The notes under the pieces: model-generated
Told to the model about the DNA's origin: nothing
Databases searched by the model: none
What the model saw: the letters and a program-made list of their open reading frames with translations, nothing else
Position numbers and translations under genes: made by a program
NCBI GenBank assembly: GCA_001784175.1
Contig: MFPR01000040.1
Location: 1-64,000, forward strand
From: Candidatus Lindowbacteria bacterium RIFCSPLOWO2_12_FULL_62_27
Lineage (GTDB): Bacteria > Lindowbacteria > 2-12-FULL-62-27
Length of the DNA stretch: 64,000 bases
Direction of reading: 5' to 3'
Part shown: positions 1-38,880 of the stretch, piece by piece
Numbering within the stretch: the first letter of the stretch is position 1
Layout of the letters: each line of letters opens with the position of its first letter

Positions 1-3000
1 TATTACGATCGTGTCCTCGACGCCCCCGCCTCGCACGATCACCGTCGTACGCGTGTCCACGTTCGAGCCGCGCACGATCAGGACGACCTTCGAAGATCGT
101 GGCAGCACCGTGTCGCCGCCGGCGGCTACCGCGATTGCCTTGCCTGCCGTGTCGGCGCCGTTCACGCTCACCTGCCCGCCGCTGCGCACGCTCTTGTTGC
201 CGACGGCGTCTGTCGCCGTCGCGTAGATCACATTGTCGCCCTGCGACAGAGTCACGGTCGTCGTCCATTCGCCTGTCGTCGCGCTCGCCGTCACTGTGCC
301 CTTGTCCGTGCCGTTCACGTTCACCGTTACGGTCGCGCCCAGTTCCGCAATGCCGGCCACGGTCTGCGTCGTGGCGGACACCGCAAGGTTGTCCGGGCTG
401 GTAATGCGTGGCGTCGGCGGCGCCGTCAGGTCCGCGACCACCGTCAGTTCCGCCGATACGACGTCGTTGACGGTCGGGTCCTGCGCGATCAACTTCACTT
501 TGTACGTCCCCTCCGTCGCGTAGGAGCCCGTGTCGGTCCGGCCGTTCCACGTGAAGGTGTAGGTGTCGGCGGCGCTGGGTTTGGTCACGTCCGAATCGGC
601 CCGGATCGTCCGGACGATCGAGTCGGACGAATTCAATACCTGCAGCGTCAGGAGGGCCGCCTTGGTCGTGCTGAATGACACGATTGTCTCGTCCTTCACG
701 CCGTCCCCGTTCGGGCTGATCCGCGTCTCCGTTACGGCGAAATTGACGATCTGAAGCACCGCGCTCTGCGCGCGCAACGCCGCTGTCTTGATCTCCAGAT
801 TGCCCGACAGGTCCTGCACGGTGACCTTCACGTCGTAATCGCCGTCGGCAATGCCGCTGGGGCCGGCCGTCGCCGTGTAGTCGCCCGAGCCGGCAAAGGG
901 CGGCTGGTAGACCAGGTCCTGAACTTTCGCGCCGTCTTTCTTGAACAACTCCACCCGCATGTTGCCGCCGGGCTTGGTCCGCAATTCAAAATCGAAGTTC
1001 GAGGCCAGCGCGGCGTTCGAAAACTGGCCGCTGACGCCGGTCACGGTCGCGAATTCCGTGTTCACGTCGTATACCGTGTTGACCGGGTCCGACGACGACA
1101 GCGTGACGGGCGCCGACTGGATGGTGGCGCCGGTGGCGTCCGTGCCGTTGACCTGCAGCGTCAGGCTCTGGTTGCTGATCTTCGTCTTGACGAACTGCAG
1201 CTTCGACGGTTTCGACGGGTTCACCGGCCCGAAGAGCGGCGTCATGCTTCCAAAGGCGTCCCCGGCGTTGTGGAAGAAGTTGATCCGCTCGAGGAGTTCG
1301 GAGCTTTCGACGTTTGACACGGTGACGGTGATGGTCGCGATGTCGTTGAGGTTGTCGTTGTTGGGGGAAAACGGGTTCGGCGTGACGCCGGTGATGACCA
1401 CCGTCGGCAGGATCGTGTCGAGAATGACCTGGCCCAGCTTCTGTTTCGTCTGATTCCCGCTTACGTCCGTTGCCGTGATCCAGACATCGTAGGTGTTGTC
1501 CGCCACGCCGCCGTCCCACTCGAATTTCACCTGGCCGCCGATGCGCAGCGCGCCCACCGACACCGTGTCCAGCGCGTTCTCGGGACCCGCCGCGCCCGCC
1601 GACGTGATTACGATGGTGCAGTAGGCGTTCTCCGACAAAAGAAACAGGATGTGGGCTGTGTCGTTCACGCCGTCGCCGTTGGGCGAGAAGGGATTCGGCA
1701 TGATTGAAGCGTCCGAAACGTTGGGCGAGATGATGTCGGTCGCGCCGGTGTCGTACAAGACCGTGATCGTGTCCATGGCTACGGAAACGTTTCCGGCCGA
1801 ATCGATCGCGCGCGATACGATGTAGACCACGGTCTCGCCGTACGCGCCGCTCACGCCGAGCTTGGTCCAGTTGATGTAATAGGACCACGCGGTCGTCCCG
1901 GTGGCCGTGTCAAAGGACAGCGCGCCGCCCGCGCCGCCGGTGTCCAGGCCGATTTCGACCCGCACCACGCTGGAGGTCGTGTCGCTTGATTTGCCGGACA
2001 TCGTGAAGTTCAAGTTGAACTGCTTGTTCGTGGCCGGGAACAGGATCAAGGCACTCGGCGGGGTGGTGTCGAAGGTGAATTTCCGGGTGAAGGTCCCCGA
2101 ATTGCCGGCTTTGTCCTTGCGCGTCACGCTGATCTCGTACTGGCCGTCCTCGGAGGCCGTGTCCAGGGGGTTCGACAGCGTCAGAATCACCGAATCGCCG
2201 CTCGAAGTCTGCGTGGCCGAGATCAACGCCACGCCCTTCGTCAAGGTCACGATCGACGACACGCCGTCCACGCCGGAAAAACTGTCCACCAGCGCCACCA
2301 CGAAACTGTCGATCCGTACGTTGAAGAGTTCGGCCTCGGTGATGTTGTCGGTCGTGCCGTTCCGCAGGATGTTCGCCACCAGGGGTGCGGTCGCGTCGAA
2401 GACGATGGCCGTCGTCTCCTCCGTCATCACGTTGCCGCCCTTGTCCCCCGCGCGGATGTTTACGCGGTAGACGCCGTCCGATCCGCCCGTCTTGGTCAGC
2501 GGGCTGATCAGCGTGAGGGTGGCGGCGGACACGCCGTCGTTGGTCATCGTGCCCTGCAGCACATTGCCGCCGGCGTCCAACAGTCGGATGAGAACGCTGT
2601 CAAAACTGATCCCCGCGCCCACTTCGGTGAACGTCGCCTGGATCTGCGTCACCGTGTCGGTCACTGTCGTGTCCACGGCGGTGACGGTGTCGGCGCCTGC
2701 CAAAAGCGTCGTGCGCGCCGGCGCCTGCTGGTCGAAGACGAATCCGCGGCGCTCCACTTTCTGGTTGCCGGCCGCGTCCAGGGCGGCTACGGTGATGTCG
2801 TAGGCGCCGGATGCGGGCGTCGAATCGGTGAGCCGGAAGACCAGGAGAGAATCGCCGGCGTTGCTGAGCGAGCCGCCGATGGTCTGGCCGGTCGTCAGGT
2901 TCGTCAGCGTGATGACGCTGGCGCCCAGGCTGACGCCGCCGCGGTACTTGAATCCCAGCTCGCCCGCCGTCTGGCTCGAGGAATCCGTCATCTGTACGGC

Positions 3001-6000
3001 CACGGTCTCGATCGTCGCGCCGGCGCCGAAGAGCCGGCCCTCCGAGATCGAGTCGCCGCCGCCCTGGTTGTTCACCCAGAAAAATCCGTCGATGACGCTC
3101 GGGCCTACGCTGTCCACCACAAAAGAGTCCGTCAGCGTTGTCGTGTTGCCCGCGTTGTCCTGCGCCACCACATAGATGCCGTACACGCCGTCCTTCTTGC
3201 CGTCCCCCACGACGTCCAGCACCAGGTCCATCGTGATCTGGTCGCCCGGCGTCGGGCCGTTGTTGGTCAGCGTGACGCCCTGATTGACGGCCTCGGGATT
3301 GACGAGGCGCGCGCCGCCGGTGGTCGCGTTGATGTTCAGGCCGGCGTTCTGCCCGGTTGTGCCCGGATCGACCAGCTTGACCTTGACCTTGCCGATGCCT
3401 GTCCTGACCGTCGAATCAAAACTCGAGATGATCTTCGTCGTCGCCGCCTGGCCGGGCTTTGTGTCTGATTCGACCGACAGCCAGTCCGTCGTCGTGAAGG
3501 CTGGCGGCGTGGCGTCGTAGACGAATTTGTCCGTTGTGCCGACGGCCTGCGTGTTGCCGGCGTTGTCCACGGCGGACGCCGAGATCGTGTATTCGCCCTC
3601 GCCGCCGCCCACGAGCGTGCTGTTCGGAATCCGCACCTGCCACGTGTCGAACCCGCCGCCCGATACGGAGGTGTCGATCGAGCCGCCGGCGTCCGTCGTC
3701 TTCGCCGTCGTCACCGACCCGTTCGGCGCTGTCACCTGCACGTCCACCCGAACGAGACCCCCGGTCTTGCCGGCCGGCGTGCTTCGGCCGATCACCACGA
3801 GGTTCTCCGAGGCGCTCTGCACGCTCTTGCCGTTGAACGGCTTCGCCTGGCTGCTCAGCTCCTCCTTGACCGTCGTGATCGTCGTCACGGGCGCGGCGTT
3901 GTCCAGCCGGAAAAAGACGAATTGATCGTCCGCACGGACCTCCAGCGACAGGCCGGTCGCGTCGCTGTCGCCGGACTTGACGCCGATCGTGTCCAGCCGC
4001 GTGAAATCGATCGGTCCGACCACGGACTGGCCGATCAGCGTTCCTGTATCTATGACGATCGTGTCCTCAAGACCGCCGCCCCGCACGATCACCGTCGTCC
4101 GCGTGTCCACGTTCGAACCGCGCACGATCAGCGCGACTTTGCTCGCGCGCGGCAGTACTGTGTCGCCGCCGGCGGACACCGCGATCGCCTTGCCCGCCGT
4201 GTCGACGCCGTTCACGCCGACCTCCCCGCCGCTCCGCACGCTCTTGTTACCGACCGCGTCCGTCGCCGTGGCGTAGACGACGTTGTCGCCCTGCACGATC
4301 CCCACGGTCGCGCTCCACGCGCCGGTCGTCGCGTTCGACGTGACGGTGGCGACGTCCGATCCGTTGACGTTGACGGTGACAAGCGCGCCGGCTTCGACCG
4401 AACCGCTGATGGTCTGGCCGGCGGCGGAAGTCGCGAGGTTGTCGGGCGTGAAAATCTGCGGGGGCGCGGGGCGCTCATTGTCGAGGGTGACGTTGCCGCT
4501 GGCGGTCAGGATCTGGCCGTTGCCGCCGTCGATGGCCGTGACTTTCCAGTAGTATGTCTTCGTCGCGTTCGGGCTTAGGATGCCGCCGGTGTCGGTCTTG
4601 CCCCGGAAGATGAACGACTTCGACGCCGGAAAGACGTTGACGGTCACGCTGTCGTTGAAGACCGCGGTCGTGTCGCTCGGGTTCGCAAAGACTTGGAACA
4701 GCACCGTCGCGCTGTCCTTCGCGCCGTCCGACGTGAACCGGATGGTCGTGAAATCGTTCTGCGCGTCGCCGTTCTCGGGGCTGATGGTCGCCGGGGTGAT
4801 CGAAACGCCGGTCAGCGAGAACGGTGTGATGTCGATCTGCACTTCACTCGAGGCCTCCGACGTCAGGCCGTGCCCGTCCACCGCGGTCACCACGATCCGG
4901 TACAACCCGTCTGGAGGCGTCGGCGCGCCGGAACCGGTCCACGTCACGAGCGAGTCGGTCACGTCGCCCGGCACGTTGACCAGCGTCGCGATCAGCGCGC
5001 CCGTCGTCTTCGCGTAGACCTCCACCCGGCTGCTCACGGCGCTCACGGTCGTGTAGCGGATCGTCGTCACGTCGTCCTGGCCCGGGGTGGCGGGCGAGGG
5101 ACTGAACGGATTCGGAATGGGCGACTGCGTCAGCGTCAGCACGGGCGGCAGAACGTCCTTGATGCCTTTTACCGTCACGCTCGTCTTGTTGCCGCTCCGG
5201 TCGGTCACTCGTATTTCAAATGAGTAGGTGTCGTCCAGCACCAGGTTGCCGTTCACATCTTTTCCGTCCCACACGATCGCGTTCTGGCCCGCGCCCTGAG
5301 TCACACCGTTGGTCGGGACCGTGTCGATGAAGGTCCCGTCGCTGGACTTGATCACCACGAGCGCGGTGTCGACGGTTTCGTTCAATACATATTTGATGGC
5401 CGCGCCGGCCGCGCCGAACACCCCGGGATCGACCACGGCGTCGCTGATCTGCGGCGCCGTCACGTCGGTGATGCCGGTGTCGTACCGGATCGTCAGCGTG
5501 TCGCTGAGCGCGCCGGTGTTGCCGGCGGCGTCCACGGCGTAGGCGACGATCTTCCAGTCGCCCAGCGTGTCGCCGAGGAGCGTGAAGTTGATGGTGCCGA
5601 TCCAGGAGGCCGCGCCGGAGGCCTGGCTGTCCTGCTTCAGCTTCGTGATCTGGCCCATGTCGGTGTCCGGAACGTAGACCCGCACGAATACCTTCGCGAC
5701 GCTGCCGGTCGTGTCGCTCGCGGCGCCGGTCACGGCGATCGGCCCGATGTTGAACTGCGTGTTTTGCGCCGGCGTCACGATCCGAGCCTGCGGCAGGTCC
5801 TTGTCGAACACGAACGTCGCGGTTTCGCTCATGTAGTTGCCTGCCGCGTCAGCCGCCGTCACCACGATCGTACAGACGCCGACCTCCGACGCAAGGTCGA
5901 GGATGTTGCCCCCGCTCAGTTGCCGGCCCAGCGTGTCGGCGCCGGCCTCAAAGACCAACGTGCCGACTTTCTGGTTGGCCGCGTTGTAGAAGGTGAGGGT

Positions 6001-23287: not shown

Positions 23288-26200
23288 TACTGCACAAATT
23301 CCTCGTCCGCGCGCAGCGTCACCTCGATCGCCGAGTCGACGCCGTAGCCGGAAACGCCGCCCAGAAAGACCGTGTCGAACCGGTCGAACGTCTGGCCGCT
23401 CTGGGCCGCGATGAGACGGTTCACGGCCGCCTTTGTGTCCACCACCACGCTGTCCCGCACGATGCTGCCCGCAAGCGACCCCCACACCTGCAGGACGGTC
23501 TGGGTGTCGGGCGCCTTGTTGATGAATATGTTTATCTTCGACACGCGCGGCAGCTTCAGATGCGTCGTGTCGGCGGAGATGCCCTTCGAATCGGTCGAGG
23601 TCCACGTGATCTTCGATCCGCTCGGCGTGGAAACGTTTCCGACGCCGTCCTTCGACTTCGCGTAGATGTTGTTGTAGCCCTGGACCAGCGGGACGGTCGC
23701 AAACGAAAACGTGCCGTTCGGCGAGGTCGCGATCGTCGTCAGGCCGAGGCTCGTCGCGTCCCGGAACAGCTCCACGGTCGAGCCGGCTTCCGCAATCCCG
23801 CTGATCGACGTCTGCGACACGTTCTGCGTCTTGTCCGCCTCCGTGATCCGCGGCGCGTCCGGCGACACCAAGTCGATCGTCGCCTTCGTGTCGAACGCGA
23901 TCGTCAGGTTGTCGTTCGGGTCGTAGGCCGTGATCTTGATGACGTAGTCCCGGCTCGTCACGAATACCCCCGAGTCGTTCTTGCCGTCCCACGTGACCGT
24001 GTAGGTGCCGGCGGCCCGCACCGACGTGTCGGCCACGATGGTGCGCACCGGAATGGTGTCGTCGGAGGTCTGGAAAATCTTGATGGCCAGTTGGGCCGAC
24101 TTCGTCGTCGTCGCCGCGATGAACAGCTCGTCCACCACGAAATCGCCGTTCGGGGAAATCGTCCCGTTCGTCGGCGTGAGCTGCACGTTCGTCACCTGCA
24201 ATATCGCCGTCTGGACGGTCACGGTCGTCTGGCTCTGCACGAAATTGCCGGCGTCGTCCACCACCTGCACCACGATGGTGTAGTCGCCGTCGGGGGTCGT
24301 TCCCGCGGCCGGCGCCCACTGCGAGGTGTAACTGCCGTTGCCCGTGAAGGCCGGGACGGTCGTCAGCGAACCCACCGAGGCGCCGGAGGCGTTCCGGACG
24401 TTGATCGCGATCTCGCCGGTCTTCGTGTACAGATCAAAGGATAAATCAAAACTCGTCGTCGAGGTGCCGCCCGGGCCCGTTACGCCCGTCACGCTGCCCC
24501 ACGTGCTCAGGATCGCGAGGATGTCGTTCGGCTGCGTCGTCGCCGGGATCGACACGGCATTGCCCGTCTGCGACGTGCCGTTCGCCGCCGTGCCCTGCAA
24601 CGACAGCGTGATCGCCGCGCTCCCCGAGGCCTGCTTCGCGATCCACACAAGCTCCGTCGGGCTCGGGATCGTGAACGGGCCCGACGTGAATACCGGCGCG
24701 TTCACGGTGAACGGCGACTGCGCGCCCGTGGCCGTGATCCGTACCGTGCCGATGAACGTGCTCGTCGGCAGGTTGCTCACCGAAAAGGACAGCGTCGTGC
24801 GGTCGTTCAGGTTGTCGCCGTTCGGCGAAAACGGGTTGGGACTGAGACCCGTGATGTTGACCAGTCCCGGCGTGAGATCCACGCGGACCGACGTCGTCTC
24901 CGTCGTCGTGTTGCTCTGGTAGTCCGTCACCTGCAGCCGGATGACGTAGATGCCCTCCGCCACCACCGCGTTGCCGTTGTCCTTGCCGTCCCACGACACC
25001 TTGTTCGCCCCCGCCGTCTGGCTGTCCGCCACCAGCGTCCGCACCAGATTCTTCGCCGGCGAAAAAATGTCCACAACCACGGTGTCGGTGTTCTCCGACA
25101 GGCTGTAGCTGATGAACGTCAGGTCGTTCTGGTTGTCGCCGTTCGGTGAAAAAGGGTTCGGCGAGGCCGAGAGATTCCCGATCACCGGGGCCTGAATGTC
25201 GGTCAGGCCCGTGTCGTACGTGATCTCGATGGTGTCGCCATAGCCCGAGTTGTTGCTCGCGCGGTCCTGCGCGCGTATCAGAATCCTGTACCGGCCCGTG
25301 TCCGAGCTGTTCGTGAACTTCGAATTCACCAGCGCCGTCGGGTCCAGCACGAAACTCCACGAACTGTACGGCTGCTGGCCCGCCGTCGTGTCGGATTCGC
25401 TCCTCACCGGCGAGTCCGTCACCAGCGGCGTCAGGTTGTAGCTGTTGCCGGTGCCGCTCGAGTCGAACCAGATCTGCAGATAGACCGCCGACAGGTTCGA
25501 GGCCTGGATGCCCGAAATGAACGTGTTGCCGTCCGGGTCGACCGCCGTGCCCAGCACGGTGATGGGCTTCGAGTTGAATTTCGTCCCGGTATTCGGAAGC
25601 GTGACGTCCGCTGTGGGCTTGGTGTTGTCCAGATTCACCACGGCCGAGTCCGGCCAGGTCGACGTGTTGCCCGCCTTGTCCTTCAAGGTGACGGGCAGTT
25701 TCAGGTTCACGTTGTCTTGAATGGCGTTCGTCGGCGCGATCGTGTGCGCCGTCCGGATGAAGGTCGCGGTCGTGACGCCGAGGTTGATCGTGCCGGTGTC
25801 GGTGTTGATCGAGTCCAGCGAGCTGTAGTTCACGCTCGTCACGATCGTGTCCGTGCCCACCTGGTCGGTCACGGTGAGGTCCAGCGTCACGACGTCGCCG
25901 TCCTTGAAGTTCGTGTCCGACGGGACCACGGCCGAGATCAGAATCGGGCCCTGGTTGTCCAGAACGATCGTGAAGGAGTCCCCGACGTTGGTGGTGTCGT
26001 TCGAACCGTCCGTGATCGTGATCGGGACGGTGCCGCTGTAATTTTCGAAGGTGTTCGAACTGTTGAGCGTGTACCTCACCGAAAACGAACAGCCGATGTT
26101 GTTGGCCGTGAACGGCCCCTGGATCGTGTAGCCGCCGCCGCTGAATTTCGAGTCGATCACCCCGAAATTCGGCGTGATCCGAACGTTCAGCGTGTCGTTG

Positions 26201-29200
26201 TCCTGCGGATTCACGTACACGTCGAAGTTGATGACTTCGCCCGCGTTCGCCACCGCGCCGCCGCCACGGTAGATCGTGTCCGGGTCCCGGCTCACGATGA
26301 ACCGGAAGGACGGCTTGATCGTGTCCAGCTCGATCGGGACTGTCTCGTAGGCTTCGTTGCCGACGTCGTCCTTGAAATACAGAACCACCCGCGCCGGGTC
26401 GGTGTTGCCGCTGTTGCCCGAATAGGGCACGTAGGTCATCCGGTAGGTCGTGGAGGTGTTCGCGCTGATCACGATCGTGTTGCCGTTCTGGGCCTGGAAA
26501 CTGTCCTGCAAAAAGCCGGCCTGCGGGGTGGGGTCGAAATTGTAAAAGTTCACTTCAAAGGTCGGCACGTTCGACACCGGCTCGTCCAGCGTGACCAGCA
26601 TCCGCACCGATTCGCCCGACGTGTAGGTCGTGTCGGTCACCGGCGCAAAGGCCGAGTCGGTCTGCTGCACGGTCGCCAGGGGCTTGCGCGTGTCGGCGAT
26701 GATCGGCTGCTTCTGCGTCAGGTTCTGCGTGGTCGAGATGTTCGCGTTGTTGTTCAGCGTCTCCGTGTACACGACGTCGTCCGTGTCGACCGAATAGCCG
26801 AACCGGTCGTTCACGTTCGACGTCCGGTCCACCGCGTTGCCCTGCCACGTCGTGCTCGTGGCCGTCCGGATCACCACGAAAAAGTCCGCGCCGGCCGAGT
26901 CGCTCGTGTTCACGTTCGGGACGTCTGCCACGTTGCCGATGCCGCTGCGCGGCGTCAGTTTCACCTTCAGGCCCTGCGGATTGGTGACGTCGCAGGGGAT
27001 CGGTGTGTCCGGGGCGTCGAAAACGCCCGGAATGCCCTTGTCCAGCCACAACGATATCCCGCTCGAACCGTCCGTGTCCGTGTAGCCGGCGCCGATGGTC
27101 CGCCGGAAATCGTCCAGACCGAAATTGTTCACGTCGATGAAATTCACGGTCACCGACGCCAGCCGCGCGCCGCTGTCCTTGTCGAAGGCGTCGATCCCGA
27201 TGATCGCGCGCGTTTCGGAATTCGCCGGTAAATATATGGAGGAGGTCTCCGTGACCAGATTCGTGATCAAGGTCGGGACGCGGGCGCGGAACGTGTTCGA
27301 AAGCTGGGTCTGCTTGGCGGTGTTCGAACTGTACTGAATGCCGGTCGCGGGGATCTCGAACTGGAACTGGTCGTTGAACCGCAGGCCGGTGTCGCCGTAG
27401 CCGGAGGTTTTGAACGTGATGTAAAAGTCGTTCCCGTTGTTCGTGCCGACGTCGTCGTTCGGAAGGTCCACGGGAGAGGCCGGGGTCAGGATGATCTGCA
27501 GGCCGCCGGAGATCGCCAGAAAGGACTGCGTGCCGCTGAGCTGGATCAGGCCGTTGGCGATGTCCGAGGCGTCAAAGGTCCCGTTGCCGTTGATCTCACG
27601 GTACAGCGCCATGCCGCTCGCGTTCGACACCGACGCGAACCAGTTCGCGGACACGGAGCCGTTGTAGTCCTTCACGTTGACGGTGACGCTGTTGAGCTTG
27701 ATGCCCTTGTTGGCGTCGCTCACGTTGACGCCGAAAAACGCGGTCGAGAGGCTGTTGATGTCGATCCGCTGGTCGGTCGTGGTCAGGTCCTGGATGCCGG
27801 TCGTGTTGATGTCGCCGCCTTCGATGGTCTTCGTCGCGACGGTCGTCTTGTTGTAGCCGTTCGACAGCACGATGCCGTTTTTCTCGATCGAAACCTGAAA
27901 GTCGTCCCCCAGATTGATCGTTACGCTCGGGCGCAGGACCACGAAGAAATCCGTCAGGTTGTCCTTCGTGTCCGGCAGGTCCGTGTCCTTGATGCCGCTG
28001 AATACGAATTTCACCACGTTGTTCGCGTACGTCACCGACTGCGCCGACAGCGCCGTGTCCTTGTCCTGCTCGAACACGCCGTCCCCGTCGTCCCGCCAGA
28101 TCGATACGCCGCTGCGCGAGTCGCCCGTCAGGTCCGCCAGGTCCGAAATGTTGAAATTCGTGGTGAGGGTGTCTGTGAGCTTTACGTTCACTTCCTTCAA
28201 AAATTCGTAGGAAAGCCCGCTGTCCGACATCCGGATCCCGATTACGGGCAGAGGCGAGTTGTTCTCCTTGAGAAGCTGGCCGGTCACCGTCAGGTCCGTG
28301 AATTCGACCGGAATGCCGAGCGTCAGAAAGTTCGTGGCGATCGCCAGGTCGCTGTCCGATTTGCCGACCCGGAACTTCAGGGCGCCCCCGATGATCCGCG
28401 CGTAAAAGGTGTCGCCGAAATTCGCCTTGGAACTTGTCCGGACCACCACGAAAAAGTCGTCCTTGCCGTCTGAAGCGTCCGGGATCGCCTCCGGCGTCAC
28501 CGGGATCAGTTTCACCGTGTCGCCGGTCCACGACGGCTGGATGATGCTGATGATCGGGTCCACGTTCGCGTCGAAAAGTCCGTCCCCGTTGCCGTCCTTG
28601 TACAGCGACACGCCGCTGGCGGTCGTCGTCGTCAGCGTCGCCAGAACGTTCGAGTCCGCGCGGCCCGGATACACGAAATTCACCGCCACCTCCTCCAGCG
28701 TCTGCGAACCGCCCGAACCGTCCGACACGTTGATCCCGATCATGTTCACAGGGTCCGACAGCGCGTCCACCAACTGGCCGGGCGTCGTCCAGTCCGTGTA
28801 GGACAGAGACGTGATCGACCGCACCGTGATGTTCTTGGTGTAGAACCGCTCGGTGTTGTTGCCCGCGGTGCCCGTGGTCCAGATGCGGCTCCGAAGGGTC
28901 TGGCCCGTGTCGTAGAACTCGATGTTCGGCGGGAAGGCCGGCAGCGCCGGAATGCCGTCGCCTTCCGGATCGATCAGCACGTTCCCGAACGTCACCTGGA
29001 AGGAATCCCCGTTGTCGGCTGTCAGCGAGGTCCGGACCACGAGGAAGAAGTCGTCGCCGAGATTTTCGGATGTGTCGTTGTCCGGCACCTGCGTGTCGAG
29101 CGATCGCTCGAAATTTAATACCGCGTATGGATCGTCCGTGCCGCCCCACCCCGGCCACACGGATTTGGCCATGTTGAGCGGTACCAGCGTGTCAATGCCG

Positions 29201-31239
29201 GGGTCGAATACGCCGTTGGTGTTGTCCGGATGGCCGTCGTTGTCCCGGTAGAGCGCTAGACCGCTCGCGGTCGTCGCCGCCAGGGAATTGAGGTCTGTGG
29301 TCGTGAACGACGTCCCGGCGCGCTCCAGGAAAAAGGACAGTTGATTCAGCGTCACCGGCTCGTTCCCGCCCCGGTCCGTCACGTTGAGGCCCACCACCGC
29401 CAGGGGGTCGCTCGCCTCCGGGACCTCCTGGCCGCTCAAGGTCACGTCTGACAGGAACGTCAGCACCTGCTGGCGGTAGGAGCCGACAGTCCCGGAACCG
29501 CTCGTGACGGCCGGGCGGACGCTCTTGCCGTGGCCGAAAATCACGCCGCGATCCGGAATCCCCAGATGAAACGTGTCTTCAAAATCGATCGTCTTCGACG
29601 TGAGAATCGCCACCCAGAAGCTGTAATCCGCCGGGGGCGGGGTGCCGTCCACGTCCATCGTCTTCGTCGAACGTAGCGTGTAGCCGTTCTGCAGGAAGAT
29701 GGTACAGCTCGTGGCGCCCGGGCCCCACACGGTCTGCGCGGGGGACAGCGGCAGAAGCACGTCGGCCCCCTGGCTGAACGTCAGGCCGCCGTCACCGGAA
29801 TTGTTCTCCCAGATCGATATGCCGCTGAACTGGTCGCCCGTGATCGGGCGAAGATCCGTGCGCGGATCGAACCCCTGCGAGTCGGGAAACTGGATCACGA
29901 GTCCGTCCATCGTCGTCGCCAGGTGATTGCCGTCCGTCGGGCCGCCGATGATGCGCATCGCGAATACCAGCGTCGGATTGAAATCGAGGGACGTCAGGTC
30001 CGTCATCAGCGATACCGGGCTGCCGAAAAAGGCGTCGACGTTCCGCTCCAGGGCCCCCGTCAAACTCCCCGGCGTCAGCGAACGCGGCGTTTCCATGACC
30101 TCCTTGATCTGGCCGCCTTGGTTGTTGCTCGGCGCTACCTGCGCGCTCGGACCGATCACGGCGGAGTCGTCGTTGGAACCCGGGGGGTTCGCGAAAACAT
30201 TCGGAATCTTGAACCCCACGCCCGTCGGCGGGATCGTGCATATCCACTCGTCGCCGTATCCCACAAGGCCGGTGTCCCAGCCGCCGCCGGTCTTGACGGC
30301 GACGAAGTAATTGTTGTTCCCGGACGCGTTTCCGGCGTAGGTGGTCGGCAAATCGCGCGTGGCCGAGCCGCTTAACTGAAAGATCATCGTACACGACTGG
30401 CTCGCGTCCAGCGGCGTCGACAATGTCGGATGGCCGCACAGGTACCGCGTGCCGTCCCGGTCAAATTCCTGGATGAAGGTGTCAGTGCCGAAATCGAACG
30501 ATCCGTTGCCGTTCGCGTCCCGGTACAGGCGAACCCACTCGAAATCCCAGTAAGGTTGAAAATCGCCCACGAGTCGCTGGAAGACCACCGTGACCGAATC
30601 GATCTGGCCTGTGCCGGCGGCGTTGAGACCCACCAACGAAAATTCCGAGTTCGCGCCTGCAATGTCCGGTACTTGGCCGTCCGTCAGGCCATCGATGGTA
30701 AAGGCCACGCTCACCGTGTTGGTCGCGTTGGCTGCAAAAACGGAGTTGCCGCCGCCGGAAGTGCCTCCCGTCCAGTTGACATCCACAGCCGTGATGGTGA
30801 ACTGGTCGTCCTGGTCCGCCAGACCGGCAACATAAATCCACGAGCCCAGCGTCAGGCTTCCGTTGACCGGAATCGTGTTGCCGCCCACCAGCGTCACTGT
30901 CACGTTCCCGGGGCCGCTGCGCGTGTTCGACCCGTTGTTCGTCGTGTTGTTGGCGTCGGTGATGACAAACGTGTAGACTTCGCCCGCCGCCACGTTGTTC
31001 ACGCTGGTAAGAGTAAACTGAATGTCGGTTACGGTCACGGGGTTCGTGCCGCTGCTGTTGTTCAACGTGATCGTGCCCCACCGGAATGCCTCCCCGGGCA
31101 TCGCCGCCTGGTTCGAGATCACCAGACTCGTGATCGACCCGCTGCTCAGATTCGCCGCCGCCGGCCCCGCCAGGATCGCCTGTACGAGAAGAATGCACCC
31201 GATCAGAACGCAACCGAATTCTCCTCCTGCCTTTCTCAC
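1..31239 (-). CDS. Giant secreted Ig/FlgD-like repeat protein (C-terminus beyond window)
   Basis: All codons beginning at positions divisible by 3 on the minus strand stay open from the GTG at 31239 to the window edge, giving at least 10,413 residues (about 1 MDa) and no stop. Residues 1-30 (MRKAGGEFGCVLIGCILLVQ...GPAAA) look like a signal peptide, so the protein is exported. The first 1,400 or so residues hold repeated modules with acidic DxNGDGxFD-type loops. After them come FlgD-type sandwiches recognisable by NPFSPNGDNxND and VSWDGKD...G.Y motifs. Then six tandem super-repeats of about 1,280 residues each contain around 11 Ig-like, FlgD-like and Big_6-like sandwiches ending in YDT/FDxxxP linkers. 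No catalytic domain was seen. It starts 74 bp after the phospholipase-D-like gene and is probably co-transcribed. An in-frame ATG at 31317 overlaps that gene's stop and is an alternative start. A cell-surface adhesin or structural fibre is the likeliest role (inference). Confidence 0.9.
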   Translation of the reverse strand, partial: MRKAGGEFGCVLIGCILLVQAILAGPAAANLSSGSITSLVISNQAAMPGEAFRWGTITLNNSSGTNPVTVTDIQFTLTSVNNVAAGEVYTFVITDANNTTNNGSNTRSGPGNVTVTLVGGNTIPVNGSLTLGSWIYVAGLADQDDQFTITAVDVNWTGGTSGGGNSVFAANATNTVSVAFTIDGLTDGQVPDIAGANSEFSLVGLNAAGTGQIDSVTVVFQRLVGDFQPYWDFEWVRLYRDANGNGSFDFGTDTFIQEFDRDGTRYLCGHPTLSTPLDASQSCTMIFQLSGSATRDLPTTYAGNASGNNNYFVAVKTGGGWDTGLVGYGDEWICTIPPTGVGFKIPNVFANPPGSNDDSAVIGPSAQVAPSNNQGGQIKEVMETPRSLTPGSLTGALERNVDAFFGSPVSLMTDLTSLDFNPTLVFAMRIIGGPTDGNHLATTMDGLVIQFPDSQGFDPRTDLRPITGDQFSGISIWENNSGDGGLTFSQGADVLLPLSPAQTVWGPGATSCTIFLQNGYTLRSTKTMDVDGTPPPADYSFWVAILTSKTIDFEDTFHLGIPDRGVIFGHGKSVRPAVTSGSGTVGSYRQQVLTFLSDVTLSGQEVPEASDPLAVVGLNVTDRGGNEPVTLNQLSFFLERAGTSFTTTDLNSLAATTASGLALYRDNDGHPDNTNGVFDPGIDTLVPLNMAKSVWPGWGGTDDPYAVLNFERSLDTQVPDNDTSENLGDDFFLVVRTSLTADNGDSFQVTFGNVLIDPEGDGIPALPAFPPNIEFYDTGQTLRSRIWTTGTAGNNTERFYTKNITVRSITSLSYTDWTTPGQLVDALSDPVNMIGINVSDGSGGSQTLEEVAVNFVYPGRADSNVLATLTTTTASGVSLYKDGNGDGLFDANVDPIISIIQPSWTGDTVKLIPVTPEAIPDASDGKDDFFVVVRTSSKANFGDTFYARIIGGALKFRVGKSDSDLAIATNFLTLGIPVEFTDLTVTGQLLKENNSPLPVIGIRMSDSGLSYEFLKEVNVKLTDTLTTNFNISDLADLTGDSRSGVSIWRDDGDGVFEQDKDTALSAQSVTYANNVVKFVFSGIKDTDLPDTKDNLTDFFVVLRPSVTINLGDDFQVSIEKNGIVLSNGYNKTTVATKTIEGGDINTTGIQDLTTTDQRIDINSLSTAFFGVNVSDANKGIKLNSVTVNVKDYNGSVSANWFASVSNASGMALYREINGNGTFDASDIANGLIQLSGTQSFLAISGGLQIILTPASPVDLPNDDVGTNNGNDFYITFKTSGYGDTGLRFNDQFQFEIPATGIQYSSNTAKQTQLSNTFRARVPTLITNLVTETSSIYLPANSETRAIIGIDAFDKDSGARLASVTVNFIDVNNFGLDDFRRTIGAGYTDTDGSSGISLWLDKGIPGVFDAPDTPIPCDVTNPQGLKVKLTPRSGIGNVADVPNVNTSDSAGADFFVVIRTATSTTWQGNAVDRTSNVNDRFGYSVDTDDVVYTETLNNNANISTTQNLTQKQPIIADTRKPLATVQQTDSAFAPVTDTTYTSGESVRMLVTLDEPVSNVPTFEVNFYNFDPTPQAGFLQDSFQAQNGNTIVISANTSTTYRMTYVPYSGNSGNTDPARVVLYFKDDVGNEAYETVPIELDTIKPSFRFIVSRDPDTIYRGGGAVANAGEVINFDVYVNPQDNDTLNVRITPNFGVIDSKFSGGGYTIQGPFTANNIGCSFSVRYTLNSSNTFENYSGTVPITITDGSNDTTNVGDSFTIVLDNQGPILISAVVPSDTNFKDGDVVTLDLTVTDQVGTDTIVTSVNYSSLDSINTDTGTINLGVTTATFIRTAHTIAPTNAIQDNVNLKLPVTLKDKAGNTSTWPDSAVVNLDNTKPTADVTLPNTGTKFNSKPITVLGTAVDPDGNTFISGIQASNLSAVYLQIWFDSSGTGNSYNLTPLVTDSPVRSESDTTAGQQPYSSWSFVLDPTALVNSKFTNSSDTGRYRILIRAQDRASNNSGYGDTIEITYDTGLTDIQAPVIGNLSASPNPFSPNGDNQNDLTFISYSLSENTDTVVVDIFSPAKNLVRTLVADSQTAGANKVSWDGKDNGNAVVAEGIYVIRLQVTDYQSNTTTETTSVRVDLTPGLVNITGLSPNPFSPNGDNLNDRTTLSFSVSNLPTSTFIGTVRITATGAQSPFTVNAPVFTSGPFTIPSPTELVWIAKQASGSAAITLSLQGTAANGTSQTGNAVSIPATTQPNDILAILSTWGSVTGVTGPGGTSTTSFDLSFDLYTKTGEIAINVRNASGASVGSLTTVPAFTGNGSYTSQWAPAAGTTPDGDYTIVVQVVDDAGNFVQSQTTVTVQTAILQVTNVQLTPTNGTISPNGDFVVDELFIAATTTKSAQLAIKIFQTSDDTIPVRTIVADTSVRAAGTYTVTWDGKNDSGVFVTSRDYVIKITAYDPNDNLTIAFDTKATIDLVSPDAPRITEADKTQNVSQTSISGIAEAGSTVELFRDATSLGLTTIATSPNGTFSFATVPLVQGYNNIYAKSKDGVGNVSTPSGSKITWTSTDSKGISADTTHLKLPRVSKINIFINKAPDTQTVLQVWGSLAGSIVRDSVVVDTKAAVNRLIAAQSGQTFDRFDTVFLGGVSGYGVDSAIEVTLRADEEFVQYNVDVSAPAPSITSIKEEVSGQVSPLNGRSPGVSAEDVQVSGRSAPAGAAAGLVRVDVTVRAPNGAVTTVTTADAGGLLDTTSSSTFDTWQVRIVNSVLVGGGEGIYQLTVATADNAGNSQSIASSFIYDVSPPQFIAAGAITVDDTAAGSKVLSAFDTSVRSSVGKVRVRTQDPGTANQIAGLNLNQTTIGARLADPAGAAVGIVRSNNGVDEVAMDLVFKVGSDGKRDGVYGVYLVAQDNAGNTTTLTDSFVVDNVGPSVIGGVFYVNNRGGTEVIAEGQVFNATTFIDTIAVLLTDSSSQNSSDIGFRFSGGVNMAASSISVTNKTTLQSIAGVVSSAGDSLLIFWLSDSTPASSGDFEVQVSAFDQFGNQRTEKRTFRYDAQAPFFSITPDTGAVVNRLDNIVVRVGDTVTGLTSAELRWIWDDNGDSQFTEAVTLLSLNASGNPGQIDTSNLSLGRPTNGSADGDYALWVRVVDKGGNVFEDTKIVRYDTVKPTRQDFLVQRGSGGVFSTIPVTATLNAQGQTIFVATSAISDSIVFAGVDMFDTVLNPNGRVSDIAKYNETTVVFFYNASNQKVGSFEFEPVADTMGRRLVGGNILDAANEAGVCTIVVTAVDAAGNFMAETATFVFDKDNPQVKIVTPPQGSQFNIGPIAVTGTASDTTGSVARVYMRVYVPGTDFGASEAVARMDSLASGAASWLGTLNFAQLGDTLGDWKIVAYAVDAAGNTGALSDTLTIRYDTGITDVTAPVISDAVVDPAVFGANGAAIKYVLSEAVDTAFVVITTSGGAAVDTIPTSAGLPQGAGQNAIVWDGRDASGNIVLDDTYSFEIRVTDKSGNKANVTVKGIKDQVPPVITLTQSPIPNPFSPAPTTPGQDDVTTIRYTTVGAANSRVEIYAKTTGALVSISATVLGDVTDTIVQWNGGGAPTPPDGLYRIVVTAVDGNGLTAQVSNEVEIDVTPFTLTGVAINPTVISPENGDGVNDFTVISYRVDGVKDSATVLFQVFTNPSDTAAVYNDSLVVNVFPASKTFTFRGKTDTGGILSSKAVRTYYWKVTGIDGTNGQVLTASGNVTIDNLRPVPPQIVTPDNLAVSVATQTVNGSAEPGAQVVLTVNGVDLAPVTSNPATGQWTTTVNIVQGDNIIYATAVDSTGNRSVRSGQQVSLNGVGQNGVSIGVESNGDPALPRASKAVLIIRGSNVDSQMAVILRGGGLDDTITLDTGTLVGQRVVGNLDMTRLDTIGVKTGDSDPAGLSVEIRAEDQYLFFRLDVSAPDATITTVREEASGQQSPINGKSAQDPTEDVLVIGRSSPPGVTGGLVRVDLTITLPNGTKSKVSTTDFPATKGNPDTNAGAFDTWIVRIPNATLIAGGDGDYKLEATTIDNAGNQDTSPALTFTFDQTSPQFSATNKIVVEADTGPSATNLPTKTLTTFDTAVRTGVGKVKVRFTDPAAPVSGQSNSGLDLNLTTSGARLVDPQGADVGIVRANNNVDEVTMDLVFDITSDGKRDGVYGIYVVVSDKAGNSDTAVDSFVIDAVGPSVIGDNFYRINNPGGFTVITEGQVFSGSDFFDSVAVYLTDSSSQTAGDLGFLYNGGVNLTASSLNMTNKTTLQSIGGVIRTVSDSLLMFQLTDSTPVSGDIEIQVTAFDRSGNQRITKRSFKYDAQGPFYAQSPETGAIVNRLDNVVVRVGDTITGVSAAQLRWIWDENGDNIFNEPATLITLNASGVAGQIDTNTLSLGRVTNGTQDGDYLLWVRVVDKAGNVTEDTKIVKYDTVRPTRVNFLVEHGASASVMETLPVTALTDTQGRTVFVATKTFGDSVTFVGVDLLDSAPSPNGKVTDVSAYNDTTRVVFVNAAGQAIGTFEFDTATDTMGRRLVGGNILDAAAEAGVCTIVVMAVDAAGNFMAETATFIFDKDAPQIRIVTPAQNAQFNVGPIAITGVASDTTGKVARVFMRVYVPDTAFGQIRKQKQDSLAIGSASWVGSVNFVLLGDTPGDWQVVAYAVDDAGNTSALSDTRTIRYDTTITDVTAPQISDATVDPGVFGAGGATIRYVVNEPIDTGLVVIKTSGGVFVDTAPTNGTPQSAGQNAIVWDGKDASGNLVADDTYFFEIQVTDRNRNRATITVSGVRDVVPPVVTLSQSPIPNPFSPAPVTPGEDDATTLRYTTIGAVTSRVDVYAKSTGAFVRQIAARFGDIADTPVTWDGAGAPTPPDGLYRIVVTAVDVNGLTAEVSSEVEIDVTPFSLTNVLLVPTLLSPENADGVSDFATLSYVVNGAKDSATMRFQVFANPTDTTAVFTDSVTVNVFPATKTFTFRGKSDTGGILSGGATKTYSWKLTAVDGGNGQILTASGNLDIDNSRPAPPQIFTSDNLAVTTTNQAVSGSAEPGAQITLNLNGTDLQPPVTANLQTGLWTAAVTLAQLAQGDNVIYATASDSAGNKSVRSGRQVTLTGVGDTGGVSIGIESGGDSVLPRPSKAVLIVRGSTVDTRTTVIVRSGALEDTIVIDTGTQVGQRVAGSVEFARLDTISVKSGDSDAIGLSVEVRADDQFVFYRLDNVAPVPTIVSAKEELSGQSSPFNGKSAQSASENVLVTGRSTPAGATGGLARVDVTITYPNQATTTKVSTTDFTGAGNPDTAVSGGAYDTWIVRIPNSTLLAGGDGDYTLVADAFDGAGNKATAAAFTFTLDQTSPTFATTGKIIVLDTGTGSKTLTNFDTTVRTAVGAVRVTLSDPAAPDASQKNAGLDLNVTTGGSRLVDPKGANVGIVRSNNAPTPGDQITMDLVFDVATDGRKDGVYGVYIAASDNAGNTAVLTDSFVIDSVGPAVVGSNYYLNNRGGGSTISEGQIFNATSAIDSIVVQLTDSSSQVSSDLGFGFSGGVNLPATSIAMTNKTTGQSVAGLVSSAGDSLLIFWLTDSTPVSGEFEVQVTAFDQGGNQRTEKRTFKYDAQAPFFTIAPDTGAKTSRLDNILVSVGDTITGVSTDTPPQLRWIWDENGDSLFTEPATPITLNASGTAGQIDTSVTSLGRVTNGTQDGDYALWVRVVDKAGNVVEDTRIVRYDTVKPTRIDFLIVHGTSASITETMPVTAVTDTQGRTVFVATRAYSDSVIFVGVDLADSSPSPNGRVTDVAAYNETTTVTFYNASNQKVGTFEFEAIADTMGRRLVGGNILDAAIEAGVCTIVVTAVDAVGNFMSETATFVFDKDNPQVKIQSPAQNAQFNIGPIAVTGAASDTTGSVARVYMRVYVPDTAFGQVRKQKQDSAVTGTASWVGTVNFTQLGDTLGDWQIVAYAVDAAGNTSVLADTLTIRYDTSITDVTPPVISDATVDPGVFGANGATIKYVLSESADTAFVVIKTSAGAAVDTVPFVGIAQGAGQNAVGWDGKDVNGNLVLDDTYTFAITVTDRSGNKSIVTVSGIKDVLPPILTLTQSAIPNPFSPGVTPGEDDVTTIRYTTVGAVSSRVDVFAKSSGILVATLVPAGITGATVSGDATDTQVVWDGSGQSDGLYRLVVTAVDGHGLTSEVSSEVEIDRTPFTLTGVAISPTVISPENADGLSDFSIISFTANGAKDSATIRFQVFANPSDTIAVFNDSVTVNVFPAVKTFTFRGKTDTGAVLSVKATKTHYWKVTAVDGNGHVLTAGGSVEIDNLRPAAPQIFTSDNAAVSAGLQTVTGQAEPGSQVVLNVNGVDAGTVTANLINGLWTATVSLSQGDNIIYGITVDTVGNRSVRSGRQVSMAGVSDTGVQIGIESNGDTVLPRASKVVLIVRGSNVDTRTTVIVRGGGVEDTIVIDTGTLIGQSVVGSVDFTRLDTIGVKSGDSDATGLSLEVRADDQFVFFRLDNAAPVTTITTQKEELSGQVRPFNAKSVQSASENILVLGRSTPAGKTGGLVRVDVTVTAPNGSVTTVKTTDAGGSIDTSVSGGGYDTWQVRIPNSTLQGGGEGEYTITAAAVDNAGNTQPLPASDKFIYDATPPAFVSVGAIDVTADTGVGAIPSKTLSSFDTTVRTGVGKVKVKMTDPGTVQVSQLSISATTTGARLVDPAGSNIGSTLSNNAVDEVTMDLVFDVAGDGRKDGVYGVYVVAQDNAGNTTTLTDSFVVDSVGPSVVGGFFWVNNQGGGDSIAEGRLFGPGATIETIAVQLTDSSSQVAGDLGFKYRGGVSLAASLITLTNKTTNQSAGGTLSSVTDSLLIFQLADSTPASGVYEILVAAFDLAGNQKTEKRGFTFDQQAPSRTALIVGSETVTVSDTIVTDTVSAVKVTFTEVGSGLSFDSVVIRLVDANNNALQGTMSNDGVSAATLTLVTTLSKTGGSDGIYRVNIRAADQANNVMTEETTTIMYDVTPPAVLSILRNGQPDDITDSRILNVRVDSFVVQLVDSFSGVDGLSAIVTLTKGVTTLTATQTTAGDSVILALSNPLDTTPEDGPYILSITRKDRAGNSGTFTRTFTFDTTAPSSAFVYPSSNQKFNSNITISGTARDTTSSISRVEIGFDTGGAGGVLQFDTATGAQNWSYFIDWSKLGVKSQYGETFVILVTRAVDAAGNAEVPADTLTIFYDTGASDITPPYVSNVSITPNPFSPNGDGVNDTADIVFVLSENASCTLLVLSTLSTDLKNALDTIAVNVSKSAGLVKFSWDGGLLDNTYDIWIVTVDASRNQITQKLGRIRLDTILPVVTITSISPSPFSPNNDNINDATTMTFSVAGVQGEDIGTLSVSDLATQQGSTNLGTTGNFTLPRTLVSPARVFFVGSGQMPANGDVNIQVVGIDENGNSINPTVSLPANGTISTSQKFSKIDAISVASVTGASQTAWDGKTGIPIIVFSSEGAVTVRAEDPSGNVISGQDNLTFSPVFKGDGTYFVTFPQGSTTLSDGVYVLVVRAQDNSGNVTVEKADVTAASSRLQINFFAVTEGRISPNGDFIKDESIISFTTTKPALLTLQILNAADSVVRTLKSDTLATQPSAAGPYAFTWNGKSDAGLVVTEGTYRAKLSALDPTLNDVVTSDTTIVVDFTKPAPPQIFTSDNLAVSVANQAVSGSADPGASVTLNLNGTDVGTVTANASTGLWSATVSNAQGDNVIYATATDAVGNKSVRSGRQVNLAGVSDTVGVGIGLESGADTVLPRASKVVLIVRASTVDTRTVVVVKGGAQEDTIVLDTGTTIGQRVVGTVEFSRLDTIVVKSGDSDASGLQVEVRAEDQYVFFRLDNVAPKPSITTIREEASGQVSPFNGKSTLDATEDVLVIGRSNPAGVTGGLARLDVTVTLPNKTTVTVKTTEFPGINNPDTNAGAVFDTWVARILNSTLVAGGDGDYQVVAVAIDNAGNLDSSTVSTFTLDQTAPAFASTAAIVVLDTAAGSKTLTSFDTSVRTAVGKVKLKFADPAPPVTTQNNAGVDINTTTSGARLIDPAGANVGIVRSNNGPTPGDEVTLDLVFDVAGDGKKDGVYGVQVVVSDNAGNTATLRDSFVIDSVGPTVVGSNFYLNERGSGATISEGQIFGATQVIDSIVVQITDSSSQVTTDLGFKFNGGVNLSGSSISATNKTTGQSVSGVVSSAGDSLVIFWLTDSTPISGDLEVQVTAFDQSGNQRTEKRTFKYDAQLPFFTISPDTGAKMNRLDSITVRVGDTVTGVSSDTPPELKWIWDENGDSAFTEPATTLSLNASGVAAQIDVSSLSLGRATGGTQDGDYALWVRVTDRAGNILEDTRILRYDTVKPTLQDFVLVHGSSASVTETIPVTKTGSGLQTVHVATRAYNDSVVFAGVDLVDTVTSPNGRVTDVTGYNDTTTLTFYNAANQKVGTLVFEAGADTLGRQLSGGNILDLASEVGVCTIVVTAADAAGNYMSETATFVFDKDLPQARIVTPAQNTQFNIGPIAVTGAASDTTGSVAKVFVRVYVPDTDMGQITKLKQDSQASGAASWIGTINFTLLGDTLGDWKIVAYAVDAAGNTGALSDTLTIRYDTGITDVTAPQISDAVVDPGVFGAAGAAIKYVLNETVDTALVVIKSSDGTFIDTVPTNGVTQGAGQNAIVWDGKDVNGNLVLDDTYSFEIRVTDRSGNKTSVTVKGIKDVLPPVLTLTQSPIPNPFSPSPATPGQDDVTTIRYTTVSAVSSRVEVYAKTTGALIATLVNVPGDVTDSLVTWTGSGAPTPPDGLYRIVVTAVDGHGLTSEASSEVQIDITPFSLTGVSITPATISPENGDAQNDFTTIRFTSDGAKDSATVLFQVFANPSDTTAVFNDSVTVNVFPASKSFIFRGKTDTGGILSPNATKTYYWKVTAIDGGNGQILTASGNVTLDNERPAPPQIFTPDNLATSAAGQTISGSVEAGALVTVNVNGSDVATVTSNATTGAWSATVGIVQGDNVVYATATDAVGNKSVRSGGEVGVNGVDTAGKAIAVSAGGDTVLPRASKVALIVRGSNVDTRTTVIVRGGGLEDTIVIDTGTLIGQSVVGPIDFTRLDTIGVKSGDSDATGLSLEVRADDQFVFFRLDNAAPVTTITTVKEELSSQAKPFNGKSVQSASENLVVIGRSTPAGKTGGLVRVDVQVTAPNGSVTTAKTTDAGGSIDTSVSGGGFDTWQVRIPNSTLVGGGEGEYTISASAVDNAGNTQAVGTTDKFVYDATPPAFTTTDWLSVESDTKPGQAATTKIISSFDSTVRTGIGKVKVKLVDPGTTGQNAGLNINATTGGARLVNPEAVNQGVTLTNNGPTPGDQITMDLVLDVVGDGKKDGVYGIYVVAQDNAGNTTTLTDSFVVDSVGPSVIDGFFWVNNQGGGDSISEGRLFGAGATIETVAVQMTDSSSQTAGELGFKYRGGVSLGASVITLTNLTTGQTIGGSLSNAGDSLLVFRLTDSTPASGAYDITVAALDAAGNQKVERRGFVFDQQAPARTTLLAGADTVTAVDTTVTDTVTQIQATFTEVGAGISFDSVLIRLLDAGGNVLQGTMTNDGVSAATLTLISPLTKTGGSDGVYRVNIRAGDKGGNVMTEETTAIVFDATAPLVANILRNGTTDNITEAELFNVRIDSFVVALVDSFSGVDGVSSIVTLTKGVALISATQTSSGDSVILTLSNPLDTASEDGQYEISVTRKDKAGNSGTFTRKFTFDTTPPSALILFPATNKQFNLNFTMSGKSSDTTSSVVRVEIGLDTGGAGGALSFDTATGTTAWSYYINWTKLGVSGAYGETVVYIVSRAIDSAGNVSVAMDTITVLYDTGATDIISPNVSDASIMPNPFSPNGDGVNDTAHILFLLSENAYCTIVITSAGAAGPENALDTVSVGALRIGGQVKFEWDGGVADNTYDVWITATDVSGNQTKQKLGQVILDTILPTVVITGVTPNPFSPNNDNLNDIATITVTVSNVESSELLERINFFHNAGDAFGSMTPLFGPVNPSKPSKLQFVKTKISNQSLTLQVNGTDATGATIQSAPVTLSSSDPVNTVYDVNTEFATVTGVSGQFSNAALASNFDFELRTKPGGNMRVELFKKDGAKVQDLVYQPPFAGSGDYTATAGPSGIADGDYDVKVTVQDLSGNLEIKTAALRAQSAVLQIVNFAVTETRISPNGDGVKDETIVSFSTTKAALLTLQVLNSSDSIVRTIRADSDVTKPSAADTYTFTWNGRTDTGSYATEGTYKVKLIAQDPTVNDVVSAELTVVADLTAPPTPRITSPDNLAVSATTQTVAGIAELGATVTVNVNGTDKGTVTASATTGEWTTTVTLSQGDNVIYATATDAVGNKSVRSGGQVSVNGADTAGKAIAVAAGGDTVLPRSSKVVLIVRGSNVDTRTTVIVRGGGVEDTIVI
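27000..30545 (-). repeat. Head-region repeats with EF-hand-like acidic loops
   Basis: In the N-terminal part of the giant protein the pattern G[LVI]xLY[RK]DxNGDGxFD recurs about every 500-700 bp (170-230 residues). Examples are LYRDANGNGSFD near 30530, a degenerate IWENNSGDGG near 29820, LYRDNDGH...NGVFD near 29250, LYKDGNGDGLFD near 28610, IWRDDGDGVFEQDKD near 28100, LYREINGNGTFD near 27610 and a degenerate LWLDKGIPGVFD near 27060. Each is followed by a DDFFVVVRT-like strand. The acidic loops resemble calcium-binding dockerin/EF-hand loops, so calcium-dependent rigidity is a reasonable guess. Binding itself is not shown by the sequence. Confidence 0.7.
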
Positions 31240-31244
31240 TGCCT

Positions 31245-31290
31245 TTCTCCCCCCTCCCCCCTTGTGGGGGAGGCTGGGTGGGGGGTTTTT
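31245..31290. repeat. C-rich/G-rich palindromic dispersed repeat (family 1 variant)
   Basis: This sits in the 74-bp gap between the phospholipase-D-like gene and the giant gene. A run of C (TCCCCCCTCCCCCC) faces a G-run (GTGGGGGAGG...TGGGGGG). It resembles the palindromes at 46875, 47646 and 59388. Read on the minus strand it ends in GGGGGGAGAAAGGCA just before the GTG at 31239, so it may provide the Shine-Dalgarno of the giant gene. The frame is open across it from the ATG at 31317. Confidence 0.6.
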
Positions 31291-31313
31291 GGGGTGTCTT
31301 TCATTGGGCTGTC

Positions 31314-38129: not shown

Positions 38130-38840
38130 CTACAGCCCCGATTCCCTCTTCACCGCCTTCTCCACCATCTCCCTCACTCCTTTGTCGACCGCGAACACCA
38201 AATCCTCGTACTCGTCGCCCTTCTTCACGCTCGGCCACGCCATCCATATCCCATCCTTCCCATCAATCAGCTTGCATCCCTTGATCGTCACCGCATTGTT
38301 CAGCGTCACATCCGCAAATCCCTTCACTTTGCTGTGCCCATCCAGCTCCTTCCACCTGACTTCCGTCACCTTCAACGACCCAGGCTCCGCTCTCCCCTTC
38401 GCCCTCCCGTCTTTTATCGCATCCTTGATCTGCTTGGCTATGCTCTTATCCTCTAGAAACACAATATTATACTCCCTGCCGCCCTTCCCCGGACTCTTCG
38501 GAAAAAACAATAGCTCTCTTCCATCCTCCTCTCGTATCTCCAAGCCCTTGAAAACAATAGCCCTGTTTAGCGTTGCCGAATATTTGCCGCCCTTTTCCTT
38601 ACGAACCTCCGTAACCGCCAACTCACTCACCGGCTCATCCGATTTCGACTCCTTGCCCGCCGGCTCCCCCGCTTCCTCCTTGGCCTCCGGCTCTGCCGCC
38701 GGCTCCTCCGCAACGATTGTTTCTTTCTTGGCTGCCTGTTCTGTTTTACCGCAGGAAACCACAAACGGGACCAGACCGAAAGTTATTACAGTTATCGCTA
38801 CGACTGGTGAAAATTTCTTCAGCACGGAAAATTTTTTCAA
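38130..38840 (-). CDS. Lipoprotein with two tandem SpoVG-like domains
   Basis: A TTG start at 38840 is chosen because a perfect AAAAGGAGGT lies 7-8 nt upstream. An upstream in-frame ATG at 38933 lacks such a site and would bury the signal peptide. The 236-residue product has a lipoprotein signal (LKKFSVLKKFSPVVAITVIT...LVPFVVSC, Cys30), then an acidic Glu/Ala/Lys-rich linker (31-70). Two SpoVG-like units follow: residues 73-145 (ELAVTEVR...IVFKGLEIREEDGRELLFFPKS) and 155-232 (LKVTEVRW...VTLNNAVTIKGCKLIDGKDG, then IWMAWPS). The second matches the SpoVG pattern of V-T-D-V-R, a beta hairpin and G-x-x-I/F-x-A-M/W-P-S. SpoVG proteins are normally cytoplasmic nucleic-acid binders of about 90-100 residues, so an exported, lipid-anchored duplicate is unusual. 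Function unknown. Confidence 0.8.
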   Translation of the reverse strand: MKKFSVLKKFSPVVAITVITFGLVPFVVSCGKTEQAAKKETIVAEEPAAEPEAKEEAGEPAGKESKSDEPVSELAVTEVRKEKGGKYSATLNRAIVFKGLEIREEDGRELLFFPKSPGKGGREYNIVFLEDKSIAKQIKDAIKDGRAKGRAEPGSLKVTEVRWKELDGHSKVKGFADVTLNNAVTIKGCKLIDGKDGIWMAWPSVKKGDEYEDLVFAVDKGVREMVEKAVKRESGL

Positions 38841-38847
38841 GGGACGG

Positions 38848-38857
38848 ACCTCCTTTT
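38848..38857 (-). promoter_or_regulatory. Ribosome-binding site deciding a TTG start
   Basis: AAAAGGAGGT on the minus strand is a full anti-Shine-Dalgarno match placed 7 nt before the TTG at 38840. It is the reason for preferring that start over the ATG at 38933. Confidence 0.75.
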
Positions 38858-38880
38858 GTTGTATAATGGTACAGACCCCG

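Follow-up and report, generated by a model that had tools for sequence, protein, structure and literature searches.

A gene of probably about 33,000 codons, split between two contigs of one genome, predicted to encode a surface-anchored adhesive fibre

The window, meaning the whole 64,000-base stretch of DNA analysed here, probably carries the N-terminal third of one gene of about 33,000 codons whose product is predicted to be an extracellular adhesive fibre, secreted by a type IX-like route and anchored at the cell surface. The gene is among the longest bacterial genes recorded, comes from a little-known phylum and is relevant to the translation, export and anchoring of a chain of 3.4 MDa. 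It differs from most giant genes in having a conserved orthologue, an architecture that is recognisable over its full length and a testable hypothesis of export, built on a sorting-type C-terminus and an adjacent PorV-family protein. It is also an example of giant genes that are broken at contig ends and thus under-counted.

The giant frame in the window is coding

On the minus strand, the frame from the GTG at 31239 to position 1 runs for 10,413 codons without a stop and without an N, exactly the count that the first-pass annotation had given, and a coding signal was present throughout. The probability of a stop-free stretch of this length is about 10^-123 when base composition only is considered (stop chance 0.027 per codon). 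The GC content at the three codon positions was approximately 0.57/0.48/0.88 along the entire length of the frame. In a comparison with the orthologue from a sister genus (61% amino-acid identity, 3,207 codons) the differences at codon positions 1, 2 and 3 were 0.31, 0.23 and 0.48, which, judged from the aligned codons of an independent genome, is a pattern of purifying selection. The giant frame is therefore not merely open but coding. An ORF of 2,512 aa on the plus strand (10741-18279) was rejected as an antisense shadow in GC-rich DNA, since the minus frame agrees better with the codon-position pattern and with homology.

When read from an ATG further upstream, the same frame occupies 1..31317 (10,439 codons, again with no stop or N) and runs past the left edge of the contig. 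The 78 bases that separate ATG 31317 from GTG 31239, the start context of which is MRKAGGEFGCVLIGCILLVQAILAGPAAA, contain a REP-like palindrome, CCTCCCCCACAAGGGGGGAGGG (31252..31273, minus strand), located between the stop of the upstream gene and the GTG. At up to 3 mismatches the palindrome had 36 matches in the genome, the site in the window and 35 others, and the reversed control had none; variants with compensating changes in both arms were also seen (CTTCCCCC...GGGGGAAGG). Because this palindrome lies upstream of the GTG and the conserved start of the sister-genus orthologue aligns at position 31239, the GTG is more likely to be the start than the ATG. The ATGA overlap between the upstream gene and the ATG of the giant frame is, for the same reason, probably accidental.

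The gene continues on a second contig

Since the window corresponds to positions 1-64000 of contig C40 of its own genome (G000:C40:1-64000), its left edge is a contig end. The gene on C40 (1..31239, minus strand) has no 3' end at this edge, and at the right edge of contig C2 of the same genome (110,685 bases) lies a gene of the same orientation that has no 5' end. The frame at the right end of C2 comprises 22,286 codons (C2:110684..43824, minus strand) with its stop at C2:43824, and 22,132 N-free codons make up the C2 portion of the gene. The only break of the frame on C2 is an 18-N scaffold gap at C2:110221-110238 (L012:10221-10238), ahead of which the first ~149 codons are out of frame. An identical 11-bp overlap was found on both flanks of the gap, and the two flanking pieces are colinear with one C40 unit and in frame when the overlap is counted: the piece upstream of the Ns matches C40 residues 8332-8490 when translated in its own frame, and the next piece matches residues 8490-8788 (91%). 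Given this overlap and the consecutive alignment of both flanks, the frame most likely continues across the gap, which would be a scaffolding artefact.

The two contigs share one repeat register, in which a 140-residue probe recurs every ~1,276 residues on C40 and C2 alike. Since C40 ends 139 residues past a probe and C2 begins ~618 residues ahead of one, the gap at the junction is expected to be ~520 residues, or ~520 plus whole units. Among all unit pairs, the closest were those between the final long unit of C40 and the first units of C2 (84-91% identity); a value of 100% for c2b_4 versus c2b_5 in the unit matrix was an artefact of overlapping windows. The repeat register, the near-identical flanking units and the syntenic orthologue indicate that the two parts form one gene, although we infer the join itself, as the intervening bases, a few hundred residues' worth or more by whole units, are missing from the assembly. 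The assembled total, from which the ~149 codons before the Ns were left out, was 32,544 residues with a mass of 3.395 MDa and a pI of 4.4. The whole gene would have at least ~32,700 codons and probably ~33,200 (at least 3.4 MDa). The first-pass annotation was thus correct as to the open frame and understated its extent about threefold. It had also proposed a search to the left for the stop and for a C-terminal sorting or anchoring domain, and both were found on C2, where the protein has a sorting-type FlgD-like end.

C40 and C2 could instead each carry a giant gene of its own, both from one family, with at least 10,413 codons and an unassembled end on C40 and at least 22,132 codons and an unassembled start on C2. 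No assembled base links the contigs, and the repeats are common to both. However, exactly one N-terminus and one C-terminus were found in this genome and likewise in the sister-genus genome, each with its own conserved outer neighbours, and it is the closest of all units that flank the break; we consider two genes improbable. That the repeats were chimerically joined or inflated during assembly would suit a draft of 44 contigs with one 18-N scaffold gap, but this seems very improbable, as the window and the remaining 22,132 codons are free of N and no exact repeat in the gene exceeds 110 bp (67 bp inside one contig). The repeat units are mostly 60-90% alike and thus not identical copies, and the purifying-selection pattern also argues against such an origin. 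By the available tests, the giant frame does not appear to be an assembly artefact.

A chain of Ig/FlgD-like domains between a signal peptide and a sorting-type end

The predicted signal peptide (31153..31239, minus strand) contains the single strongly hydrophobic segment of a hydropathy scan (residues 36-54 when counted from the ATG), with a mean hydropathy of 2.28, basic residues before it and AGPAAA at its end; it has the equivalent position in the sister genus. It is followed by an N-terminal region of ~1,800 residues (25800..31152, minus strand) with few family matches and partly of unknown fold. The first 601 residues of the protein had no match in Pfam, NCBIfam or PDB sequences and are 44% identical in the sister genus. 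An AlphaFold model of the N-terminal 728 residues, built from a two-sequence input, was of low confidence (pLDDT 34).

The rest of the window's part of the gene (1..25800, minus strand) encodes an array of Ig/FlgD-like domains in super-repeats of ~1,276 residues, with 7 register marks within the window. The HMM scan that the first-pass annotation had proposed gave matches to FlgD_ig, Big_13, Big_3 and Big_6 in the repeats, and to VWA. The FlgD Ig-like domain PF13860 scored 126 bits in residues 1-4,999 (gathering cut-off 27), and the D-x-x-G-N motif typical of these Ig domains occurred 179 times. Five VWA domains lie near residues 6,880, 8,300, 9,160, 20,015 and 20,910 of the C2 protein, the first two with the MIDAS motif (DxSxS). 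A second Ig array and the FlgD-like C-terminal domain, which ends NGVYLMRLEINGKVQIVPIAVVK, complete the chain. By hydropathy, no transmembrane helix was found past the signal peptide; outside that peptide, no 19-residue stretch in the ~32,500 residues had a mean above 1.9. No convincing enzyme domain was present among the Pfam matches along the protein; PF18275 (His-Me finger) and a viral coat Pfam row were dismissed as weak cross-matches between beta-folds. The Pfam matches, the hydropathy and the model of a repeat piece described below all agree with the earlier description of a coherent Ig/FlgD-like protein without enzyme motifs.

In the model of a 735-residue repeat piece (window 4063-6267), residues 270-690 formed four tandem beta-sandwiches with a pLDDT of ~75-90. 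Among the best Foldseek matches of this model were the grappling-hook protein of Aureispira (9flw) and extender repeats from giant adhesins (6xi3, 4p99). In a VIA-align superposition, residues 270-373 fitted the C-terminal part of PorU with Z 11.4 and an rmsd of 2.2 over 98 residues. As modelled, these matches reflect a common bead fold and by themselves indicate no function.

A syntenic orthologue in a sister genus

The phylum comparison took in three genomes, namely the own genome, G001 and G002, the last from the sister genus. The orthologue in G002, a groundwater MAG, has the public record JACQOF010000071.1. Its N-terminal part is 59% identical over ~3,300 aa, up to the contig end, and is preceded by the same gene for a protein with PLD and fibronectin III domains. 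In our window this upstream, co-oriented gene (31314..37751, minus strand; 2,145 aa) encodes a PLD-like domain, fibronectin III repeats and a weak lamin-tail domain, and its product is 66% identical in the sister genus, at the same location. The C-terminal part in G002 is 57% identical over ~3,800 aa, from the contig start, and is followed by a PorV-like gene and then by a gene that we take from its sequence to be ComEC. Both G002 contigs break off within the giant gene. The PorV-family protein encoded directly downstream of the giant gene on C2 is 73% identical in G002, and a fragment of a PorV-like gene opens one contig of G001. The sister-genus contig was the only match in the genome collection searched, and no relative was found among viral contigs searched with the N-terminus.

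A candidate type IX-like export route

The genome contains 28 TIGR04183 type IX C-terminal domains, many of them on ORFs of 4,000-9,000 codons, and is thus rich in giant secreted proteins. At least eight further ORFs with type IX sorting domains (4,100-9,100 codons) lie on contigs C6, C19, C28, C34, C24, C14 and C26. The last ~65 residues of the giant protein matched an HMM of 20 sorting domains from its own genome with 37 bits (E 2.9e-10), up to the last position of the model, and the C-terminal end in G002 matched the same HMM with 32 bits. Against TIGR04183 the C-terminal domain of the giant scored 14.4 bits, below the cut-off of 23. By these profile scores the C-terminus is a divergent relative of the type IX sorting domains of this genome; the resemblance is partly a matter of shared fold, as FlgD-like domains occur along the whole chain. 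A PDB sequence search with the C-terminus gave no match, and no RTX family appeared among the Pfam matches of the C-terminal 999 or 2,669 residues.

The genome also encodes a putative SprA-like translocon protein (70 bits, below the cut-off of 200), for which a PDB sequence search gave no match, and the PorV_fam match of the gene next to the giant scored 48 bits (cut-off 90). The PorU peptidase C25, GldL and SprA_N were not found in the genome, and the control genomes were silent for them as well. The SprA-like protein and the neighbouring PorV-family protein support a type IX-like route, which we regard as a fairly probable means of export.

Predicted function and comparison with known giants

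We propose that the signal peptide would take the giant protein across the inner membrane, that it may pass the outer membrane by a divergent type IX-like route in which the PorV-family protein encoded just downstream assists, and that the FlgD-like C-terminal domain would hold the chain at the surface. Some hundreds of tandem Ig/FlgD beads would then form a stalk possibly ~1 micrometre long. The parts that likely bind ligands are the VWA domains, which lie in the C-terminal two thirds and of which two keep an intact, metal-binding MIDAS; the unique N-terminal tip may be another. The first-pass annotation had pointed to a giant surface fibre or adhesin. A giant secreted Ig/FlgD-like fibre that lacks enzyme domains agrees with every test made here, and its role as a surface fibre or adhesin is predicted.

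Other functions were weighed against an adhesive fibre. A giant weapon for predation or cell contact, such as has been proposed for the Omnitrophota giants and shown for the T9SS-secreted grappling hooks of Aureispira, would agree with the fold match to the grappling-hook fragment 9flw, with the VWA domains and with the plentiful other giant ORFs in the genome. We regard it as unlikely, since its neighbours in the window are genes for glycan degradation, the protein has neither an enzyme domain nor a transmembrane helix, and the fold matches of the Ig stalk are generic. A structural protein of a surface layer or sheath appears less likely still: Ig arrays and an acidic composition (pI 4.4) also suit coats, but the several VWA domains, two of which carry MIDAS, and the unique N-terminus, which is conserved, hint at ends that bind.

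In the SprB system, sprF has a partner-protein role. SprB, the gliding adhesin of Flavobacterium johnsoniae, has 6,497 aa (PMC9870892) and is secreted by the T9SS (PMC8986121); a title cited in PMC9870892 places sprF and other genes for partner proteins in its operon. Compared by description, both are huge, filamentous surface proteins, as predicted for the giant, for which a T9SS route is also proposed, and the PorV-family neighbour may parallel the partner genes of SprB. SprB differs in being about five times shorter and from another phylum, and its gliding motor GldL was not detected in the present genome, nor in the controls. Were the type IX reading true, an export and anchoring route of the type IX family in an uncharacterised phylum would handle the giant, with a dedicated PorV-like partner encoded next to it. 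That a single polypeptide of ~33,000 residues, about five times SprB, is the longest T9SS-type cargo and forms a micrometre-long single-molecule fibre is a tentative proposal, somewhat short of an even chance; we found no direct report in the literature on giant T9SS cargo or on this MAG lineage.

Adhesins with extender repeats and SiiE are type I secreted and have a different C-terminal signal. Their repeats (6xi3, 4p99 and, for SiiE, 2yn5) resemble the giant protein in fold and in forming long stalks of tandem Ig-like beads, whereas the giant has an FlgD/CTD-like end and gave no Pfam match there to the RTX nonapeptide repeats of RTX/LapA-type type I adhesins. Aureispira grappling hooks are T9SS-secreted and used in predation (PMC11205867); their protein GhpA (9flw), which assembles into a heptameric hook, shares the tandem Ig-like fold and the route proposed for the giant, but the match is limited to the general bead fold. 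Because Omnitrophota ORFs of 39,678 aa (Velamenicoccus archaeovorus, PMC10066038) and up to ~85,800 aa (PMC12057145) exist, the present gene is a new, very large example of already known giant surface genes, and one that domains and synteny support better than they do most others. The Omnitrophota proteins are likewise megadalton surface-type products of single ORFs, but they contain numerous transmembrane helices (42 in V. archaeovorus), carry few annotated domains and are poorly conserved, whereas the protein described here has no helix beyond its signal peptide, is full of Ig and VWA domains and has a syntenic orthologue.

Further genes on the same contig

The glycan-degradation cluster at window positions 41535-62821 encodes GH94, two PF10091 glucoamylase-like proteins, GH2 and F5/8-type C domains. 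At 38130-38933 on the minus strand, a protein that begins like a lipoprotein ends in a SpoVG domain, which is unusual company for SpoVG. Beyond the window, the plus strand of C40 carries at 104686-123045 (L047, L048) an ORF that reaches 6,120 codons before the contig ends on the right; it starts with a sequence like a signal peptide and contains Ig-like repeats.
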